From assembly GCA_945787735.1 (NCBI GenBank), contig CALZIQ010000016.1:1-41103 (forward strand): a stretch of DNA of 41,103 nucleotides. Reading direction: 5' to 3'. The first letter of the stretch is position 1. Every line of letters starts with the position of its first letter. A program made the position numbers and the translations under genes. A model generated the notes under the pieces. It searched no databases and was not told where the DNA came from. It saw nothing but the letters and a program-made list of their open reading frames with translations. This stretch comes from an uncultured Chromatiaceae bacterium (lineage in GTDB: Bacteria > Pseudomonadota > Gammaproteobacteria > Tenderiales > Tenderiaceae). Positions 12,863-27,653 of the stretch are shown piece after piece.

Positions 12863-13564
12863 TTAAACGGTAAGATACTTTTTCACCAGCTCTGAATCCA
12901 ACGATGCCATCTCGCCTTTTGCCACATTACGACCACGATCAAGAATCACAAACTGCTTACCAACGCGACGGGCAAACGGCAGCTTCTGCTCTACTATCAG
13001 GACGGTAATTTTCTCTTCTTCGTTCAGGCGTAAAATCACATCACCAATCTCAGCAACGATATTGGGTTGAATACCCTCCGTAGGCTCATCTAGCAATAGC
13101 ATGCTTGGATTAAGCATAAGTGCGCGACCAATCGCCAATTGTTGCTGCTGCCCACCCGAAAGATCACCCCCTCGACGGTTTAACATTTCTTTCAACACGG
13201 GAAACATGTCATAGACTTTTTCGATGGCATTGATGGATTTATCAGCGCGTGAACTCAACCCGATCTTAAGATTTTCTTCCACACTTAGCTGCGGAAAAAT
13301 CTCGCGCCCCTGAGGTACATAACCGATGCCAACACGGGCCCTCTGTTCGGCTGCTTGTTTGGTCAAATCCTTATCACCAAACATGATGATTCCAGATTTC
13401 ACTGGCAGCAGGCCCATAATCGATTTCAACAGGGTTGTTTTGCCAACACCATTACGGCCCATGAGACAAACACAGCTGCCCTGCGCGACTTCAAGATCAA
13501 TATCCCACAGGGTATGGCTTTCACCATAAAACTGGTTGAGCCCTTTAACACTCAGCACCTTCAT
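12863..13564 (-). CDS. urtE: Urea ABC transporter ATP-binding subunit UrtE
   Basis: A 233-residue ATPase of the branched-chain amino acid/urea ABC class. It has Walker A GRNGVGKTT, signature LSGGQQQQLAIGRAL, Walker B MLLLDEPTEG and a switch His region (LIVEQKLPFA). YVPQGREIFPQLSVEENL is typical of LivF/UrtE. The ATG overlaps the urtD stop by 4 nt (ATGA), so the two are translationally coupled. With UrtD it should drive the UrtBC permease. Confidence 0.95.
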   Translation of the reverse strand: MKVLSVKGLNQFYGESHTLWDIDLEVAQGSCVCLMGRNGVGKTTLLKSIMGLLPVKSGIIMFGDKDLTKQAAEQRARVGIGYVPQGREIFPQLSVEENLKIGLSSRADKSINAIEKVYDMFPVLKEMLNRRGGDLSGGQQQQLAIGRALMLNPSMLLLDEPTEGIQPNIVAEIGDVILRLNEEEKITVLIVEQKLPFARRVGKQFVILDRGRNVAKGEMASLDSELVKKYLTV

Positions 13565-14424
13565 TCTCCCAAATACACGCTGACTACACGTGGATCGTTT
13601 TGCACTTCGTCCATACTGCCCTCAGCCAATACATGCCCTTCGTGCAGTACGGTAACTGTGCGTGCAATCGAGCGGATAAACTCCATATCATGCTCGACCA
13701 CAACCACGGAGTGCTTGCCTGCCAGGCTGGTGAGTAGTTCTGCGGTACGTTCTGTTTCTTGATGCGTCATTCCTGCGATTGGTTCATCCACCAACAATAC
13801 CCGCGGGTTCTGCACCACTAACATGCCAATTTCAAGCCACTGTTTTTGACCATGCGACAACTGTGACGCACGCAAGTCGCGTTCTGCCTGGAGATTAATA
13901 ATCTCCAAAGCTTGGTCGATTTTATCCTTTTGCTCACCGCTGAGTTTAAAAAACAAGCTAGGCCAAACACGCTTGTCCGCCTGCAAAGCAAGCTCTAGGT
14001 TTTGAAATACGGTGTGTTCGGGAAAAATAGTCGGCTTTTGAAACTTGCGCCCAATGCCTGCAGCTGCAATCTCGTATTCGGACATTCGGGTCAGGTCCAT
14101 GGTCTGACCAAAAAATACAGTGCCGCTATCCGGTCTAGTTTTGCCGGTGATGATGTCCATCATGGTGGTCTTGCCTGCGCCGTTGGGCCCGATGATGCAA
14201 CGCAGCTCGCCGTCGTTGATATAGAGGTTCAGATCATTGATGGCCTTAAAACCATCAAAGGCAACATTCACCCCTTCAAGATAAAGAATCGGGCCATGGG
14301 TGGTGTCTACCACACCCTCAATGACTGCACGCGTGCCAGGCATGGCTGGTGCGTGTTTGTCCAGCATGAAATCAAACACCCGATCGCGGCGCATAGTTTC
14401 ACGCAAATTATCCAGAGCCTTCAT
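13561..14424 (-). CDS. urtD: Urea ABC transporter ATP-binding subunit UrtD
   Basis: A 287-residue ATPase, partner of UrtE. The nucleotide-binding domain starts after an approximately 45-residue N-terminal extension, as is usual for UrtD. It has Walker A GPNGAGKTTMMD, signature LSHGQKQWLEIGM, Walker B VLLVDEPIAGMT and the C-terminal block VVVEHDMEFIRSIA. It overlaps urtC and urtE by 4 nt each (ATGA). Confidence 0.95.
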   Translation of the reverse strand: MKALDNLRETMRRDRVFDFMLDKHAPAMPGTRAVIEGVVDTTHGPILYLEGVNVAFDGFKAINDLNLYINDGELRCIIGPNGAGKTTMMDIITGKTRPDSGTVFFGQTMDLTRMSEYEIAAAGIGRKFQKPTIFPEHTVFQNLELALQADKRVWPSLFFKLSGEQKDKIDQALEIINLQAERDLRASQLSHGQKQWLEIGMLVVQNPRVLLVDEPIAGMTHQETERTAELLTSLAGKHSVVVVEHDMEFIRSIARTVTVLHEGHVLAEGSMDEVQNDPRVVSVYLGE

Positions 14425-15563
14425 GATGCAGACTCCTCAAGCGGTTTCTTCCTTATGCCCCACTCTTTTTTCTCGGCCAGCTGCTTAATCAAGCCGACGA
14501 TTCCCTGCGGCAGAAAGATGGTGACAAAGATAAACAAGGCACCAAGGAAAAACAGCCAGATTTCAGGCGCAAAGCCTGTGAAAAAAGTCTTAGCAAAATT
14601 GACTACGATAGCGCCGACCACGGCACCCACCAAGGTGCCACGCCCACCAACCGCTACCCACACGACTAATTCAATAGAGTTAAGTGGCGAAAACTCACCC
14701 GGATTGATAATACCCACCTGAGGGGTATACAAGGCACCGGCAATACCCGCCAGCATGGCTGAAAAAACCCAGATCCACAGTTTGAATGATTCAACCTTAT
14801 AACCAACAAAACGGGTGCGATCCTCGGCATCACGAATAGCAACCACCACCCGTCCCATCTTAGACGAGACGATATATTTGGATACCAGATAACCCAACCC
14901 CAAAAACAACACCGTGGCAATAAACAAGCCTGCACGCGTGCCATCCGACTGCAGGTCAAAACCTAGAATATCTTTAAAATCTGTCAGGCCGTTATTGCCG
15001 CCAAATCCCATCTCATTGCGGAAAAAGGCCAATAGCAAAGCAAAGGTCAATGCCTGAGTAATAATGGAAAGATATACACCCGTGACGCGTGAGCGAAAAG
15101 CCAGCCATCCAAACACAAAGGCAAGCACCCCTGGCGCTAGCATCGCCATCAACATGGCAAACCAAAACATATCAAAGCCTGACCAGTACCAGGGCAGCTC
15201 AGTCCAATTAAGAAATACCATAAAATCCGGCAACTCGGGATTTCCATATACACCCCGATCACCGATCTGTCGCATCAGATACATGCCCATGGCATAACCA
15301 CCCAAAGCAAAAAAGGCCGCATGACCCAAACTCAGGATTCCACAATAGCCCCACACAAGATCCAAGGCGATGGCCAACAAAGCGTAGCTGAGATATTTGC
15401 CCAGCAGTGTCAGCATGTAAGTGGAAACATGAAAGGCTGAGCCTTCCGGAATCACCAGATTGCAAAACGGCACGATGATGCCAAGCACCATGAGGCTGGA
15501 TAAAAACCACTTGGCAGCTTTATCGTTGGCTAACAGATTGATGATGAAGCTTCTATTTTCCAT
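14421..15563 (-). CDS. urtC: Urea ABC transporter permease UrtC
   Basis: A 380-residue inner-membrane permease of the LivM type. Multiple hydrophobic helices and the family segments ALDLVWGYCGILSLGHAAFF, GVYLSIITQALTFALL, FGGNNGLTDFKDILGF and WVAVGGRGTLVGAVVGA are visible. ATG 15563 starts 1 nt after the urtB stop; the frame is open a little further upstream but would overlap urtB. It pairs with UrtB to form the channel. Confidence 0.94.
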   Translation of the reverse strand: MENRSFIINLLANDKAAKWFLSSLMVLGIIVPFCNLVIPEGSAFHVSTYMLTLLGKYLSYALLAIALDLVWGYCGILSLGHAAFFALGGYAMGMYLMRQIGDRGVYGNPELPDFMVFLNWTELPWYWSGFDMFWFAMLMAMLAPGVLAFVFGWLAFRSRVTGVYLSIITQALTFALLLAFFRNEMGFGGNNGLTDFKDILGFDLQSDGTRAGLFIATVLFLGLGYLVSKYIVSSKMGRVVVAIRDAEDRTRFVGYKVESFKLWIWVFSAMLAGIAGALYTPQVGIINPGEFSPLNSIELVVWVAVGGRGTLVGAVVGAIVVNFAKTFFTGFAPEIWLFFLGALFIFVTIFLPQGIVGLIKQLAEKKEWGIRKKPLEESAS

Positions 15564-15564
15564 A

Positions 15565-17199
15565 TCAGTGCTCCGCCGCCCGGCCACGTTGCGGGAATAA
15601 TCCCCGTGGCTTTTTCTGGATAAACAGAATAATAAAAACTAACACCAGAATCTTTGCCAATACAGCCCCGGCCCAGGGTTCCAACACTTTATTGATTACA
15701 CCCAGCGACATAGCCGCCACCAACGTGCCCCACAGATTACCTACGCCACCAAACACCACCACCATAAACGAATCGATGATGTAGGCCTGGCCCATGTTGG
15801 GTCCAACATTGGTCAGCTGGCTCAAGGCCACACCGGCTATCCCGGCTATACCTGATCCCAAACCAAAGGTCATGGCATCGACCCAGCCGGTGCGAATACC
15901 CATTGCCCTCGCCATGGTTCGGTTTTGTGATACGGCACGCACATGCAGGCCAAGTGATGTCTTTTTCAGAATCATTAACAAAGCGGCGAATACCAGCAAG
16001 CTGAAGATAATGATATAAAAACGGTTATAGGTCAGTGACAAGGCACTATTTATTTCAAAGGTGCCACTCATCCATCCAGGTGTTTCAACCGAGCGATTAA
16101 GTGGCGAAAAGATTGTGCGTACTAGTTGTTGCAGGATTAGGCTGATGCCAAAGGTAGCTAATAGTGTCTCCAACGGGCGGCCATATAAAAAACGGATCAC
16201 GCCGCGCTCGATGGCAATACCCACCAGACCAGCAATCAAAAACGCCGCCGGCACCGCCACAAATAATGAATATTCGATGTGAGTTGGCATCAGTAACTGA
16301 ACCACATAGGTGGTGTAAGCACCGATCATGATCAACTCACCGTGGGCCATGTTGATCACGCCCATCACGCCAAAGGTGATAGCCAAACCTATTGCCGCTA
16401 GTAATAAAACCGAGCCGAGGCTGATACCGAAATAGATAGTCTCAGCCCAGCTGTTGTATTTGAGCTTGGCATCAATACGGGCAAGGGCTTTTATAGACGC
16501 CGAGCGCAATTCCCTGTCTTGCAGAAGATACCGTCCCTTTTCGTTCTTTGCTACCAGCGGCAGCAATGCTCCGCGCGCTTCAGACTCGAGGCTATCCCCC
16601 AGCGTTTTAATGGCGCTTAATTTGGTTTGTTTATTTTCAGACTGCATCTCGAAAAGAGCTATACCAATCCCAATGGCATCTTTAACTTTGCTCTCAGTTT
16701 CAATGGCAAGACGCTGTTGCAACAGCTCGACCGTCTCGGCATCCATATTCTTAAAGGTATTTCGTATCGCAGCTCGGCGCACATCAGGATCGTTATTATT
16801 AAAACTGAGTTTGGCTATGGCGCTACGCAGAATACCGCGCAGTTTATTATTGACCTTAATCTTCTTCAGCTCTCGCTTGCCTACCACCCCTAAGGCGTGA
16901 CCCGAAATCACATCTGTAACTGCCACCCCATCTTCGGCCTTGTCTGCAAACACGATCTTGTTTGGAGACTCTTCCTGAAAATAGAGATCCCCCTCCAACA
17001 TATATTTAAAGATCTTGAGTACACGCTCATCATTAGCGGTCTGCAGCTGCTCAATAACTTCGGCCTTTTTTGAAAAGCTTTTTTGTTTCAGCCCATCCAG
17101 AATGACAGAAAATTCAGCATTATTTGCCTGAACTGAAAATGGCAAGAGAAAAAATGGGCCTAGCAGCAATACCAGAATAAACGTGGTGAGCCGTCTCAT
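15565..17199 (-). CDS. urtB: Urea ABC transporter permease UrtB
   Basis: A 544-residue permease of the LivH type with the N-terminal extension that marks UrtB. Residues 1 to about 25 are a signal-like hydrophobic segment (cleavage near VQA). About 30-240 is a soluble helical, HEAT-like domain. The membrane domain covers about 250-535 with LAITFGVMGVINMAHGELIM, ATFGISLILQQLVR and VVFGGVGNLWGTLVAA. The C-terminal tail QKKPRGLFPQRGR is typical. It is separated from urtA by about 110 nt holding a terminator-like hairpin, so urtB-E may be expressed less than urtA. Confidence 0.95.
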   Translation of the reverse strand: MRRLTTFILVLLLGPFFLLPFSVQANNAEFSVILDGLKQKSFSKKAEVIEQLQTANDERVLKIFKYMLEGDLYFQEESPNKIVFADKAEDGVAVTDVISGHALGVVGKRELKKIKVNNKLRGILRSAIAKLSFNNNDPDVRRAAIRNTFKNMDAETVELLQQRLAIETESKVKDAIGIGIALFEMQSENKQTKLSAIKTLGDSLESEARGALLPLVAKNEKGRYLLQDRELRSASIKALARIDAKLKYNSWAETIYFGISLGSVLLLAAIGLAITFGVMGVINMAHGELIMIGAYTTYVVQLLMPTHIEYSLFVAVPAAFLIAGLVGIAIERGVIRFLYGRPLETLLATFGISLILQQLVRTIFSPLNRSVETPGWMSGTFEINSALSLTYNRFYIIIFSLLVFAALLMILKKTSLGLHVRAVSQNRTMARAMGIRTGWVDAMTFGLGSGIAGIAGVALSQLTNVGPNMGQAYIIDSFMVVVFGGVGNLWGTLVAAMSLGVINKVLEPWAGAVLAKILVLVFIILFIQKKPRGLFPQRGRAAEH

Positions 17200-17309: not shown

Positions 17310-18590
17310 TCAAAAGTTCTGACCGGAACACTTTTTGGTTTTGCTGTTGTAATTACCACACTTCAGCGTCACCCAGTCTGCTTCGATATCTTTGCTGCCG
17401 GGCAGAAAATCAGACCAGGCATCGCCAGGCACCAGGTCATCGGTTTCCCAAACCACTTCAAACTGACCATCGTCCTGGATCTCACCAATTAACACAGGCT
17501 TGGTGATATGGTGATTGGCCAGCATTTTGGAAACACCACCCGTCAGGTTGGGCACTTCAACACCGATGATTGCATCAGCAACTTTATCGGTATCTGTGCT
17601 TTTTGCCATCTCTACCGCTTTTACCCACATGTTGAAACCGATGTAATGGGCCTCCATAGGGTCATTCGTCACACGTTTTTTGTCTTTAATAAATTTATGC
17701 CAGGCTTCGATAAAGGCATCGTTTTCATCCGCTTCAACACTCATAAAGTAATTCCAGGCAGCTAGATGTCCAACCAGTGGTTTGGTATCAATACCTGAAA
17801 GTTCTTCTTCGCCAACGGAAAATGCAACAACCGGAATATCTTCCGCAGAAAGCCCCTGGTTACCCAGCTCTTTATAAAAAGGCACGTTGGCATCGCCATT
17901 AATAGTTGAAACAACCGCAGTCTTCTTACCTTCTGAACCAAACTTCTTGATATCAGACACAATGGACTGCCAATCGGAATGACCGAATGGAGTGTAGTTA
18001 ATCATTATGTCCTTTTCTGCCACACCTTTGGCCTTGAGATAGGCTTCCAGGATTTTATTTGTGGTGCGCGGGTATACGTAATCCGTGCCGGCCAATACCC
18101 AGCGTTTCACACCAATTTCGTTCATCAGGTAATCAACCGCGGGAATCGCCTGCTGATTTGGCGCCGCACCGGTATAAAATACATTCTTAGACGACTCTTC
18201 GCCTTCGTACTGAACTGGGTAAAACATCAAACCATTTAGTTCTTCAATCACTGGTAATACAGATTTACGTGATACTGAGGTCCAGCAACCGAATATCACA
18301 TCCACTTTTTCTTTTTCGATAAGTTCACGCGTCTTTTCGGCAAACAGCGGCCAGTTTGACGCTGGATCTACCACTACTGGCTCCAACTTTTTACCCAGCA
18401 GCCCACCCTTTTTGTTTTGCTCTTCGATGAGCATCAGTATTGTGTCTTTCAATGTAGTTTCACTGATGGCCATGGTGCCGGAAAGCGAATGTAAAACACC
18501 AACCTTTATCGTTTCAGCCGCCATTGCGGCTTGCATGCCTACAGCCAGTGCTGCGGCCGATACGAGTGAAACAATCTTGCTCTTCTTCAT
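17310..18590 (-). CDS. urtA: Urea ABC transporter substrate-binding protein UrtA
   Basis: A 426-residue periplasmic urea-binding protein. Signal peptide residues 1-24 (cleavage near AMA-AET). The mature start TIKVGVLHSLSGTMAISETT, then DVIFGCWTSVSRKSVLPV, LMFYPVQYEGEE, WVLAGTDYVYPRTTN and the C-terminal KCGNYNSKTKKC are characteristic of UrtA/FmdD-type proteins. An RBS (AAGGGAAC) precedes the ATG. A terminator hairpin of the porin gene lies upstream, so urtA may be reached by read-through from the sigma-54 promoter or have its own promoter. Confidence 0.96.
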   Translation of the reverse strand: MKKSKIVSLVSAAALAVGMQAAMAAETIKVGVLHSLSGTMAISETTLKDTILMLIEEQNKKGGLLGKKLEPVVVDPASNWPLFAEKTRELIEKEKVDVIFGCWTSVSRKSVLPVIEELNGLMFYPVQYEGEESSKNVFYTGAAPNQQAIPAVDYLMNEIGVKRWVLAGTDYVYPRTTNKILEAYLKAKGVAEKDIMINYTPFGHSDWQSIVSDIKKFGSEGKKTAVVSTINGDANVPFYKELGNQGLSAEDIPVVAFSVGEEELSGIDTKPLVGHLAAWNYFMSVEADENDAFIEAWHKFIKDKKRVTNDPMEAHYIGFNMWVKAVEMAKSTDTDKVADAIIGVEVPNLTGGVSKMLANHHITKPVLIGEIQDDGQFEVVWETDDLVPGDAWSDFLPGSKDIEADWVTLKCGNYNSKTKKCSGQNF

Positions 18591-18632
18591 AGTAGTTCCC
18601 TTTTAGAATGACACCCTGTTCATATTAAAGAA

Positions 18633-18660
18633 TCCCTCCTGTCATCGCTGACAGGAGGGA
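18633..18660 (-). terminator. 12-bp perfect hairpin between torF-like gene and urtA
   Basis: TCCCTCCTGTCA and TGACAGGAGGGA pair perfectly around a 4-nt loop. On the minus strand the stem is followed by TTCTTTAATATG. It probably ends or attenuates transcription after the porin gene. Confidence 0.75.
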
Positions 18661-18681
18661 TACCATCCCTAGCGCTGCTGT

Positions 18682-19359
18682 TTATAAATCGAAGCTTTTT
18701 GAATAAGTCACTTGGAAGAGTGGGTCTTCTTCGATAGCGGCCGGGTCTGTATCCGGAACATCATTGTCAGCAAAACTGATTGCAAACGAGAGCTCATCGG
18801 TGGCTGCATAGCCTATAGTCAAATGTCCATATTCATTTCCTGGCTTTTCAAGATCCCAAAAACCGTAGGTAAAACTCACCTTGTCCATTTCATAACTTAA
18901 GGTGAAATAGTTATCGTCATTGTTATCGCTATCAGTTTGCATATAAGCGCCGAAACCAAAACCTTCATAGGAAAGACCTACCACTAGCTCAGAGGCATCG
19001 GTATCAGAAAGGCCATCCATGGGAGCGGTGCCATTTTCAGGATAGAGATATTCCCAAAAGGAAATGTCGTAGCCAAGACCACCGGCTTCACCACCGAAAC
19101 CAAGATAAAGATCAGTCTCATGCCCCCCTGTCTCGGTAGATGTCCAGATACCTGCATAAAAACCACTTTCATGGCCATAATCCAGTGAACCGGAAATCGC
19201 ACCGCCATCCGGAGTAAGATTCTGACCACGCCACAGGTACATGTTGCTGGCAGCAAAGCTGGCACTCGTTTCGGCTTGTGCAGGCGTTGCAACCATACCT
19301 GCCGGAACAGAAAGAACAGAGGCAATAGCAACTGATATAAATTTCTTCTTAAGCTTCAT
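18682..19359 (-). CDS. TorF-family putative outer-membrane porin
   Basis: A 225-residue predicted outer-membrane beta-barrel. Signal peptide 1 to about 29 (cleavage near AQA-ETS). The mature part begins SASFAASNMYLWRGQNLT, the family's first strand, and alternates short aromatic strands with Gly/Asp turns. The C-terminus VTYSKSFDL gives a strand-like end without the classical terminal Phe. The frame also opens at TTG 19368, but ATG 19359 with GGGAG upstream is preferred. It is placed immediately upstream of urtABCDE, under a nitrogen-type promoter. This suggests it lets urea or short amides cross the outer membrane (inference). Confidence 0.82.
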   Translation of the reverse strand: MKLKKKFISVAIASVLSVPAGMVATPAQAETSASFAASNMYLWRGQNLTPDGGAISGSLDYGHESGFYAGIWTSTETGGHETDLYLGFGGEAGGLGYDISFWEYLYPENGTAPMDGLSDTDASELVVGLSYEGFGFGAYMQTDSDNNDDNYFTLSYEMDKVSFTYGFWDLEKPGNEYGHLTIGYAATDELSFAISFADNDVPDTDPAAIEEDPLFQVTYSKSFDL

Positions 19360-19459
19360 TCTTGTCAATCTCCCTAGGGTTAAACACGACTTAACTGACG
19401 CCTCAACAAATCACACACCCCACCGCATGATCTTTATTAATACGCGACGTCATTCAGAC

Positions 19460-19475
19460 AGCATATGCCGTGCCA
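19460..19475 (-). promoter_or_regulatory. Sigma-54 (RpoN) promoter for torF-urt
   Basis: On the minus strand the sequence TGGCACGGCATATGCT matches the sigma-54 consensus TGGCACG-N4-TTGCW at 11 of 12 fixed positions, with the invariant GG and GC exactly 10 nt apart. The start of transcription would be near 19449, about 90 nt before the porin ATG. Confidence 0.75.
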
Positions 19476-19580
19476 AAAGTATTAAAGGGAAAATATTCAG
19501 ATACTTAAATTTTTCATCCAGACTAACAATGAAGAATTAAGAAGGTGTCACGCTTTATTTTAGAGCATAAACAACCATGA

Positions 19581-19597
19581 AGAACCAATTTGGTGCA
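19581..19597. promoter_or_regulatory. NtrC-like enhancer site
   Basis: AGAACCAATTTGGTGCA matches the NtrC dyad TGCACYA-N3-TGGTGCA with a perfect right half and 5 of 7 in the left half. Its centre is about 140 bp upstream of the predicted sigma-54 start, the usual enhancer distance. Only one clear site is seen. Confidence 0.6.
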
Positions 19598-20600: not shown

Positions 20601-20918
20601 GTGGAAACTTCAAAACTTCCCGGCTTGCGTTTCACTTCACCCGAGCTGCTTTCTGAAATGCAGCAAATTAATACTTCGTCCCGTTTTTGTGTAGAAATAT
20701 CCACGCGACATCCTCAAGGGATTTTGCCTGGAGATCATCATCTGGATAATCCACCCAATCGCCTGGTGTTGTGTCGCCGATTTCAAGGTGCACCGCCTTG
20801 GTGGATAGTAGAGTTTCCTGAAGTGAAGGTTGGTTTAAAAGACTGGATCGAATTGGCCCCCCGATTTTTTATGCTCTCCAACTTTTTGCTGTGCTCAAAC
20901 GACATTACTCAGAATTGA
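20601..20918 (+). CDS. Doubtful ORF, 105 codons
   Basis: Opens at GTG 20601, with a weak GGGCAGGG upstream. The product contains WWIVEFPEVKVGLKDWIELAPRF but matches no family I know. The surrounding 710 nt (20415-21125) hold nothing else I recognise. It may be a real orphan, a fragment or chance. Confidence 0.25.
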   Translation: METSKLPGLRFTSPELLSEMQQINTSSRFCVEISTRHPQGILPGDHHLDNPPNRLVLCRRFQGAPPWWIVEFPEVKVGLKDWIELAPRFFMLSNFLLCSNDITQN

Positions 20919-22156: not shown

Positions 22157-24472
22157 CTAAGCCTTGCTGTCCATCGCCACCACCGTCTGCCCCAGACTGA
22201 TTGCCCCATCACCCGCTGGAAAGAGGCTTGGAAACAGCACTTTTGTGCCAACTTGAGTAATCTGATCACTCACACCTTGCAACAGCAGTGAGTTTTGAAA
22301 CACGCCCCCCGCCAGCACCACCGTTTGTACCCCTTTTTCACGACTGAGCTTGATAGCCAGATCCGCTATAGCCCGAATCAGACCACGATGAAAACGGGCG
22401 GCAATCTCGCCTCTGGCAACACCCTGTTGTAAATCATCCAGCAACGCCCGCCACAGCGGTGACCAGGCCAGATACCATAGATTGTCGACTTGAACATAAT
22501 CAGCGGGATAAGCAGCCCCCGACAAACCCCTTGAAGATGCCATTACTTCTAATTCAATCGCGGCCTGCCCCTCGTAACTCACCTCATCGCGACAAATACC
22601 TAGCGCCGCCGCCACTGCATCAAACAGACGCCCGGCCGAGGAACACAAGGGGCTGTTGACTTTACTTGCCGCCATTTGTTGCAGAGTGGCAATGGGCTTG
22701 TCTTGCAGGTATTGCATCAACTCAAGATCAGCAAATTCATCAATCAGCTGAGGCCAATCAAACCAGTGCAGCAATTGGGCGATGATATTGCGCCAGGGTT
22801 CGCGCATGGCCTGATTGCCACCCAGCAAAGGCACGGGTTCAAATGAAGCCAAGCGCTTGAAACCACCATAGTCGGCCAATAAAAATTCGCCGCCCCATAG
22901 CTCACCATTCTCTCCCATGCCCAGCCCGTCGAGTGCGATGCCCAATACAGGCAGAGTATCCATTGGCAAACCATGCTCAGCCATGACGGCGGCGATGTGG
23001 GCGTGATGGTGTTGTACCTCGATGCAGTCAATGCCCTGCTCTTCTGCCAGCTGCCGCCCGTACTGGGTGGAAAGGTAATTAGAGTGACGATCGACCACGA
23101 TAATCTTGGGATGGTGTTGATAGAGGGATTGATAGAGCTGCAGCTGGCGGCGGTAGTCGGCCAGCACCGGCGCGCTTTCCAGATCACCAATGTGTTGCGA
23201 CACCAGCGCTTGGCCAGACTGGCTGACGCAAAAGGTGCTTTTTAATTCTGCCCCCATGGCCAGCATCGCGGGGCTGTTTTCAAAGCCGGGTGGTAGCGTA
23301 ATGGCCGAGGGCGCGTAACCCCGGGCGCGACGCACCATGACGGGCTGTCCAGAGAGGGACCTGAGCACCGAATCATCAACGCGGTTGACGATCTCCCGGT
23401 CGTGTAACAAAAAGGCATCGGCGATGACACCGAGCTTATCCAAGACCTCATCATTGCTGATGCACTGGGGCTCATCACTGACGTTGCCTGACGTGAAGAC
23501 TACAGAGGTTTCCAGCGCCTGCATCAACAAATGATGCAGCGGGGTGGCGGGCAAGGCAAACCCTAAATGCTTATGCCCCGGTGCGACACTAGCGGCCAGG
23601 GATTCACCCTGAGCTTGCAGCAACACGATCGGTCCGGCACTGCTTTGCAACAAGACTTGCGCTTGTTCATCAACCACTGCAAAGCGGCTGATCATGTCCA
23701 CATCCCGCGCCAACAGGGCAAAGGGTTTGTGGTAACGCCGTTTGCGTTGCCGCAGTGTACTCACAGCTGTTTCATTTGTGGAATCACAGGCCAGCTGAAT
23801 ACCACCAATACCCTTGATAGCGACTATCTGCCCAGCCTTGATCAAACGGGCAGCCTGTTCGATGGCATCGTCGCAGGCGATGCGATCACCCTTGTTATCC
23901 TGCAACCACAGCTGCGGCCCACACTCGGGGCAGGCGTTGGGCTGGGCATGAAAGCGACGATCGGCCGGATCATCGTATTCAGCCTGACAGGCCCTGCACA
24001 TGCTAAACGTGGCCATGCTGGTGTTGGCCCGGTCGTAGGGAATGGCTTTGACGATGGAAAATCGCGGCCCACAATGGGTGCAGTTAGTGAAGGGGTAACG
24101 GTAACGGCGGTTGTCAGGATCATTTACTTCGTCCAAACAAGCGGAACAGGTAACGGCATCGGCAACAACAGCAGTCTCCACCACACCAGCTTCACTGGCG
24201 ATGATTTCAAACCCCGTCCCTTTTTGTTTGCCGGTCAGCCGCTGTCGTTGTACGGAATCAATCTTTGCCAGCGGCGGCAATTGTGCATGCAAGCGCAGCA
24301 ACAATTCATCTATGCATGCAGCCTCGGCCCAAACCTCGACAAGCACGCCCTTGCCATCGTTGCGCACCGAGCCTACTAGGCTTAACTCATGGGCAATACG
24401 CCACAGCGTCGGCCGGAAACCCACGCCCTGCACGATGCCGCGAATACGAATACGTTCCCCATAAGTGCTCAT
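22157..24472 (-). CDS. hypF: Hydrogenase maturation carbamoyltransferase HypF
   Basis: A 771-residue enzyme that turns carbamoyl phosphate + ATP into carbamoyl-adenylate and transfers the carbamoyl group to the HypE C-terminal cysteine, the source of the CN ligands of the NiFe site. An acylphosphatase domain (about 5-92, GIVQGVGFRP) is followed by two zinc-finger units with C109/C112-C131/C134 and C159/C162-C181/C184. Then come a YrdC-like domain (about 200-380) and the Kae1-like carbamoyltransferase domain (HHHAHIAAVMAEHG, GIALDGLGMGENGELWGGEFL, VVLAGGVFQNSLL). Full length. It is last in the hypABCDEF row, 6 nt after hypE. Confidence 0.96.
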   Translation of the reverse strand: MSTYGERIRIRGIVQGVGFRPTLWRIAHELSLVGSVRNDGKGVLVEVWAEAACIDELLLRLHAQLPPLAKIDSVQRQRLTGKQKGTGFEIIASEAGVVETAVVADAVTCSACLDEVNDPDNRRYRYPFTNCTHCGPRFSIVKAIPYDRANTSMATFSMCRACQAEYDDPADRRFHAQPNACPECGPQLWLQDNKGDRIACDDAIEQAARLIKAGQIVAIKGIGGIQLACDSTNETAVSTLRQRKRRYHKPFALLARDVDMISRFAVVDEQAQVLLQSSAGPIVLLQAQGESLAASVAPGHKHLGFALPATPLHHLLMQALETSVVFTSGNVSDEPQCISNDEVLDKLGVIADAFLLHDREIVNRVDDSVLRSLSGQPVMVRRARGYAPSAITLPPGFENSPAMLAMGAELKSTFCVSQSGQALVSQHIGDLESAPVLADYRRQLQLYQSLYQHHPKIIVVDRHSNYLSTQYGRQLAEEQGIDCIEVQHHHAHIAAVMAEHGLPMDTLPVLGIALDGLGMGENGELWGGEFLLADYGGFKRLASFEPVPLLGGNQAMREPWRNIIAQLLHWFDWPQLIDEFADLELMQYLQDKPIATLQQMAASKVNSPLCSSAGRLFDAVAAALGICRDEVSYEGQAAIELEVMASSRGLSGAAYPADYVQVDNLWYLAWSPLWRALLDDLQQGVARGEIAARFHRGLIRAIADLAIKLSREKGVQTVVLAGGVFQNSLLLQGVSDQITQVGTKVLFPSLFPAGDGAISLGQTVVAMDSKA

Positions 24473-26852: not shown

Positions 26853-27653
26853 TTATGCTTCCTCCCCATAGGGTGCGTTATACGCATCATTGATACTCTC
26901 GGATGGCACATGGTGCGCGGTGCGCACCCTACGCTCTTCGAGCCACGCATACCAATCGGCAAGGCCATCACCTTTGGTGGCCGAGACCTGGATCACGTCG
27001 ATATCAGGATTAACACGTTTGGCATAAGCGATGCACTTATCCACATCAAAATCGAGATACGGCAACAGATCCACCTTGTTGAGCAGCATCACATCGGCGG
27101 CATGAAACATGTCCGGGTATTTGATCGGTTTATCTTCACCTTCAGTCACCGACAGAATCACCACCTTATGCGCCTCGCCCAAATCAAACTCGGCCGGGCA
27201 GACCAGGTTGCCGACGTTTTCGATGAACAAGAAACTATTGGTTTCGGGCGCCAGTTTCTCCACGGCATGCCCCACCATATGGGCATCAAGATGGCAGCCC
27301 TTGCCAGTGTTAATCTGCACCGCGGCGACGCCCGTGGCGCGAATGCGGTCGGCATCATTGGCAGTCTGCTGATCACCTTCGATGACACTGATGGTCTGCG
27401 ATGCGATTAAATCGCTAATGGTGCGAGTTAACAAGCTTGTTTTTCCTGAACCAGGACTGGAAACAAGATTCAGCGCCAGAATGCCACGCTCGGCAAAAAA
27501 TGCTCGATTACGCGCGGCATATTCGTTGTTCTTAGCCAGGATGTCGGTCTCAATCCGAACCTTGCGGCTGGCGCTGATATGGGGATCATGGGCATGGTGA
27601 TGATGGCCATCAATGCTCACTTCATTTGTGCCACAACCACAGTCAATACACAT
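26853..27653 (-). CDS. hypB: Hydrogenase nickel incorporation GTPase HypB
   Basis: A 266-residue GTPase for nickel insertion. N-terminal high-affinity Ni motif CIDCGCG (residues 2-8) and a short His stretch ([10 protein letters not shown], 16-25). P-loop SSPGSGKTS at 65-73, [11 protein letters not shown] for the second metal site, [16 protein letters not shown] and [11 protein letters not shown] for guanine specificity. The start overlaps the hypA stop by one base. Confidence 0.96.

Follow-up and report, generated by a model that had tools for sequence, protein, structure and literature searches.

A putative NtrC-activated, sigma-54-dependent control region ahead of a TorF-family porin gene and a urea-transporter cluster in an uncultured Chromatiaceae bacterium

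A 41,103-nucleotide stretch of DNA from an uncultured Chromatiaceae bacterium, referred to here as the window, very probably carries an NtrC-activated, sigma-54-dependent control region for a small porin of the TorF family and a urea-transporter cluster (Table 1). This reading was reached by comparing the two candidate regulatory sites with their counterparts in the same genome and ahead of related porin genes.

Table 1. Features of the porin and urea-transporter region, in window coordinates
Feature	Position	Strand	Basis
urtE, ATPase	12863..13564	-	TIGR03410
urtD, ATPase	13561..14424	-	TIGR03411
urtC, permease	14421..15587	-	TIGR03408
urtB, permease	15565..17199	-	TIGR03409
urtA, urea ABC transporter substrate-binding protein	17310..18590	-	TIGR03407, 579.5 bits
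13-bp hairpin between porin and urtA	18632..18661	-	z -2.18 against dinucleotide shuffles
TorF-family (TIGR02001/PF09694) outer-membrane porin, 225 aa	18682..19359	-	Profile matches, predicted structure
Sigma-54-type -24/-12 promoter, TTGGCACGGCATATGCT	19460..19476	-	Pattern scan; conserved ahead of TorF genes
NtrC-type enhancer palindrome, minus strand TGCACCAAATTGGTTCT	19581..19597	.	10 of 12 consensus bases; in phase with relatives

Sigma-54 promoters follow the consensus YTGGCACG-N4-TTGCW and NtrC sites the consensus TGCACC-N5-GGTGCA; these two sequences and a weighted promoter score were applied throughout. The candidate promoter TTGGCACGGCATATGCT has GG and GC at -24/-12 with the exact standard spacing and flanks near consensus, its single deviation from this consensus being an A in place of the first T of TTGCW. 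The initial annotation had described a sigma-54 site with this spacing about 90 nt before a torF-like gene, and an enhancer about 140 bp above the predicted transcript start. Both were found. The inner edge of the promoter lies 100 nt from the porin ATG at 19359 (the mechanically called TTG start of the reading frame is at 19368) and the predicted start lies about 12 nt past the GC, giving a leader of about 90 nt. The palindrome has two mismatches to the NtrC consensus; measured from the outer edge of the promoter it is 121 bp further up, and measured from the predicted start about 140 bp. A second NtrC-type palindrome, TGCACCGCCTTGGTGGA, with one mismatch, was observed at 20789–20805 of the window, about 1.2 kb above the first; it has no assigned sigma-54 site.

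The source genome is a fragmented assembly (3.06 Mb in 170 contigs, 88.6 % complete, 5.7 % contamination). Profile searches identified one RpoN above its cut-off and eight NtrC matches above 250 bits, only one of which exceeded the NtrC cut-off, in a genome with many response regulators. The NtrC-type pattern with up to two mismatches occurred at 135 places genome-wide compared with 71 for the control, and an NtrC-type site by itself was dropped as evidence because this is only a twofold excess. The strict promoter pattern TTGGCAYR-N5-TGCW was found eight times in the genome and not at all as the reversed control. Four of these eight promoters had an NtrC site (up to three mismatches, within 200 nt above), namely those before torF-urt (offset 121), glnK-amtB (offset 110, one mismatch, in phase), a NirB-like flavoprotein gene (offset 104; the NirB match covers only the available part of the gene and does not reach the cut-off set for the full length) and the gene for a 411-aa porin (offset 121; a weak porin match). 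The other four (L175, L177, L181 and L182) were without an NtrC match at up to four mismatches, and L177 falls inside an opposite-strand open frame of the window. The non-random element is the pairing of both sites at a set distance.

A scan of orthologous torF-urt upstream regions, which the initial annotation had put forward as a check, showed conservation of both sites. UrtA was searched for in 56 genomes, including that of the window, and matched in 24; a TorF-like gene was present within 1.5 kb of urtA in five loci, the window's among them (tblastn), and in all five the porin gene was preceded by a sigma-54 site. The first set consisted of 37 TorF loci from a scan of named genome contigs, with two more from the window's genus. 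The 37 upstream regions (at least 300 nt each, window included) comprised four loci, L040, L042, L053 and L072, whose contigs had also come up in the urtA search. Sigma-54 scores of at least 7 were obtained for 32 of them, whereas shuffles averaged 0.7, the opposite strand gave 0 of 37 and other 400-nt windows from the same loci 19 of 631; the remaining five TorF genes had no site at this threshold. An NtrC site (up to two mismatches, 50–150 nt above the promoter) was detected in 15 of 29 non-redundant loci, this being the promoter-bearing set minus the near-copies L055, L067 and L071, compared with 0.2 in shuffles and 0 of 29 for each of five scrambled palindromes. Allowing three mismatches within 190 nt, no NtrC site was present in nine of the 32 sigma-54-bearing loci, among them L040, the closest urt-linked relative (77 % identical porin).

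The family is widespread: of the 369 genomes sampled from the class, 192 gave a TIGR02001 match. A second set (L082–L171) was drawn from these as 30 loci of best matches and 60 selected manually from further down the ranking, with more matches existing than were listed. The combined sets comprised 131 distinct TorF genes, 126 of which had at least 300 nt upstream. Among these listed matches, a sigma-54 site was present in 91 of 126 and an NtrC palindrome (up to two mismatches, within 170 nt above the sigma-54 site) in 57 of 126, compared with 16 of 968 anchors placed at random within these loci. Starts were set by script with a profile, and any wrong start would lower the site counts. For urt-linked genes with enough upstream sequence, the sigma-54 site was found in 21 of 23 and the NtrC site in 10 at up to two mismatches or 15 at up to three. 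The proportion with a sigma-54 site for the other downstream partners was 50 of 67 (amt), two of two (formamidase), 0 of two (urease) and 15 of 29 (none of these), the urease-linked genes counting against a uniform rule. The proposal of sigma-54/NtrC control of the porin was thus upheld by site conservation and by the presence of RpoN and NtrC in the genome, and nitrogen control of the porin is well supported at the level of sequence. Two TorF loci from the window's genus (L080 in G005 and L081 in G002) have no urt, amt or urease genes beside them in the available stretch, yet both carry the promoter together with an NtrC-type site. In two Phycisphaerae assemblies (L075 and L076), TorF is followed by an ammonium transporter; sigma-54 scores were 9.0–9.25, and no NtrC site was present at up to three mismatches.

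An activator that loops the DNA to reach polymerase from one face of the helix is expected to be placed at distances differing by steps of about 10.5 bp. Observed site-to-site distances fell at about 67–69, 76–80, 88–91, 99–102, 109–112, 120–124, 132–136 and 145, with one at 115. For a period of 10.5 bp, the resultant length R was 0.60 (set L082–L171, each family represented by a single gene, with 32 of 34 families inside the 60–150 bp range), a value matched by none of 20,000 random draws; when each distinct distance was counted once, R was 0.58 and again no random draw was as high. The window offset of 121 is in phase (5.5, mean of the others 6.06). This phasing argues that both sites function together. 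Two alternatives can be weighed on these data. That both sites are chance matches could draw on the twofold genome-wide excess of the NtrC-type pattern alone, but is extremely improbable given the phasing and the shuffle, scramble and reversed-control statistics, on which this reading was rejected. That a sigma-54 activator other than NtrC drives the porin promoter would fit the several NtrC-like proteins in the genome and the imperfect site of the window; the in-phase palindrome above glnK-amtB and its family-wide recurrence count against this, and it is considered quite improbable.

The porin is the sole TIGR02001/PF09694 member in the source genome, with 65.3 bits against TIGR02001 (cut-off 47.15) and 52 against PF09694 (cut-off 24). 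A signal peptide is likely, and the predicted structure has an N-terminal helix at residues 4–21. The structural model, built with 19 sequences (mean pLDDT 80.1, pTM 0.73), contains 12 strands, so that the protein is predicted to be a 12-stranded outer-membrane beta-barrel. The best structural match was KdgM (4pr7; Z 15.7, rmsd 2.3 over 155), and NanC (2wjq) matched at Z 14.0 among other small barrels. Both are 12-stranded monomeric porins, but their identity to the window porin is only 5–8 %; their known substrates are acidic sugars, and likeness of fold shows no function. The best E value in a Foldseek search was about 1e-4, and the KdgM sequence family was absent among the matches listed for the window porin in profile searches. 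The TorF family label presumably derives from SO4694 of Shewanella oneidensis. This protein, annotated as a porin of the TMAO system (PMC5955497), has the label in common with the window porin. A TMAO-related role was rejected as a reading of the name, since no TMAO genes were seen adjoining the window porin gene and a name does not equal a function. Two loci in two genomes, L087 and L109, have frames of 480 and 468 aa in which two TorF domains are apparently fused; the two genomes belong to one family.

The five urt genes follow the porin in the order urtA, urtB, urtC, urtD, urtE on the same strand, each scoring above its NCBIfam cut-off. About 250 N-terminal residues of UrtB precede the TIGR03409 permease match and lie outside it. 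Nitrogen control of the porin and urtABCDE as one regulon, as first suggested, gained partial support. The genes lie side by side in the same orientation, and of 24 torF-urtA intervals 23 are without a second sigma-54 site, one having its own; against this, a stem of at least 8 bp was found in 21 of the 24 intervals and a T-rich tail (at least five T in a stretch of ten bases at the stem end) in 12. The scan detected no stem in the interval of L042, yet one resembling a terminator can be seen on inspection. In amt-linked intervals, a stem of at least 8 bp was present in 46 of 55 and a T-rich tail in only nine. The stems and tails could be taken to mean that the hairpin is a full terminator, or that urtA has its own start, in which case the porin would be transcribed alone and linked to urea by position only. 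This is unlikely: the stem in the window is followed by ATTCTTTAAT, which is not a clean T run, and a sigma-54 site of their own is absent from nearly all of the torF-urtA intervals. A single regulon is the likely arrangement. Given the stems and tails, read-through into urt may be partial, and the hairpin in the window is possibly an attenuator or a stabiliser of an mRNA end. The recurrence of a hairpin between porin and urtA indicates that the porin and UrtABCDE are probably produced at different levels. The simplest reading would be a single promoter, with either partial read-through or stabilisation of the porin message.

No urease genes adjoin the urt cluster of the window, whereas 20 of 25 urt-linked relatives have urease just upstream; this counts against the preferred reading. 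A urease remnant beside the window cluster was considered and rejected; the only notable match was a weak UreG-like one at 27464–26961, which may by its resemblance be a HypB-type GTPase. The urease alpha subunit is encoded on two contigs of the genome (G000), and these near-equal genes (C130 1592–3286 and C46 7548–9242) may be paralogues, a strain mixture or contamination. A gene for HypF (hydrogenase maturation) is located at 22157–24472 of the window.

The genes downstream of TorF vary across the family. Of 131 TorF genes, 69 were followed by glnK/amtB, 25 by urtA, three by urease genes and two by formamidase, while two had a divergent urtA, one had urease only upstream and 29 had none of these; the classes depend on cut-offs for position and on reference proteins taken from the loci. 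Example loci were used to check the identities of formamidase, P-II and the ammonium transporter. The class with none of these partners includes L074, where the next gene encodes a D-Ala-D-Ala carboxypeptidase. Plasmid-borne members were found within a choline ABC cluster in Azoarcus, next to genes for heavy-metal efflux, sensor kinase and response regulator proteins in Marinobacter, and in Halomonas close to a cation transporter accompanied by a regulator of the Cd/Pb type, indicating that not all family members are nitrogen genes. In a tree of 129 proteins, the urea/amide-linked copies required seven changes compared with 29.4 for shuffled labels; the tree is unrooted and gain and loss are indistinguishable in it. 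The window porin fell in a set of 11 (ten urea/amide-linked and one amt-linked; support 100), separate from a larger group linked to urea. That all urea-linked copies form one branch was rejected (p-AU 0.00086) in a quick tree of a 55-protein subset, made up of 30 of 33 urea/amide rows and a manual selection of 25 out of 69 amt rows, with L049 (amt-linked) counted inside. On this topology, urea pairing is present in at least two branches.

These distributions bear on the substrate. The initial annotation had offered urea or small amides, and neighbouring formamidase and urease genes favour this, but most of the family precedes glnK/amtB, which suggests that the promoter marks nitrogen demand rather than urea in particular. 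Urea is a plausible candidate for the porin's own substrate. A competing explanation, which falls somewhat short of an even chance, is that the protein is a general nitrogen-starvation porin, for which NtrC control is correct but the channel is not tuned to urea and the inner-membrane neighbour is interchangeable. The predominance of glnK/amtB partners and the rejection of a single urea-linked branch agree with such a porin; the clustering of urea/amide copies fits tuning of branches instead, and common descent would also suffice to produce it. Several urt clusters without TorF have a different porin of about 360–400 aa, presumably resembling FmdC. Three of seven examined had a sigma-54 site (score 7.25–8.25) 68–80 nt before the assigned start and the other four had none, in scans of the 123–335 nt available upstream and with the start of L013 uncertain; the two tested gave no Pfam family match at 1e-5. 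A sigma-54-controlled porin before urt may therefore have arisen with unrelated barrels.

A literature search covering few subscription journals returned no published description of a urea-linked TorF porin. The closest precedent for the window cluster is, by analogy, the nlmA-glnK-amtB operon of Herbaspirillum seropedicae. According to PMC3023670, this operon is NtrC-dependent, with an amtB fusion 21 times higher under nitrogen limitation, and NlmA is most probably periplasmic and of unknown function. Like the window, it combines NtrC-type control with a gene for a membrane-associated protein before a nitrogen transporter; it differs in having glnK-amtB as the partner rather than urt. Another comparable system is FmdC of Methylophilus methylotrophus, a porin whose substrates are short-chain amides and urea (Mills 1997, cited by PMC5877670). 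In Burkholderia cenocepacia, NtrC controls urea ABC genes, urease genes and several porins (PMC5491218), and the NtrC dependence of the urea ABC genes counts for NtrC control of the window cluster. Deleting the B. cenocepacia porin BCAL3473 had no effect on the use of urea or ammonium (PMC10117139), which calls for caution in inferring substrate from regulation.

Under the preferred reading of NtrC and sigma-54 control, phosphorylated NtrC would bind the palindrome during nitrogen limitation, loop about 120 bp of DNA and open RNA polymerase–sigma-54 at the promoter. The transcript would begin near 19449 and encode the porin first, and the small barrel would raise outer-membrane permeability for small nitrogen compounds, possibly including urea. 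The hairpin would then make the porin more abundant than UrtABCDE, through a partial transcription stop or protection of the porin message. With read-through, UrtABCDE would move urea across the inner membrane to the urease encoded elsewhere in the genome.

TIGR02001 is a common family, yet its annotation goes no further than a putative porin, under a label connected with TMAO respiration. It now gains a candidate regulator, along with a few substrates to consider. At a likelihood just under even, TorF barrels may constitute an exchangeable outer-membrane gate of the NtrC regulon, in which the promoter-enhancer module travels with the porin, the inner-membrane partner (AmtB, Urt, a formamidase cluster or urease) has been swapped more than once and a hairpin sets the porin excess. 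The evenly phased enhancer distances form a ready-made data set for studying the limits that DNA geometry places on NtrC, and the findings raise the question of why nitrogen-starved cells would need a special outer-membrane door for solutes the size of ammonium or urea.
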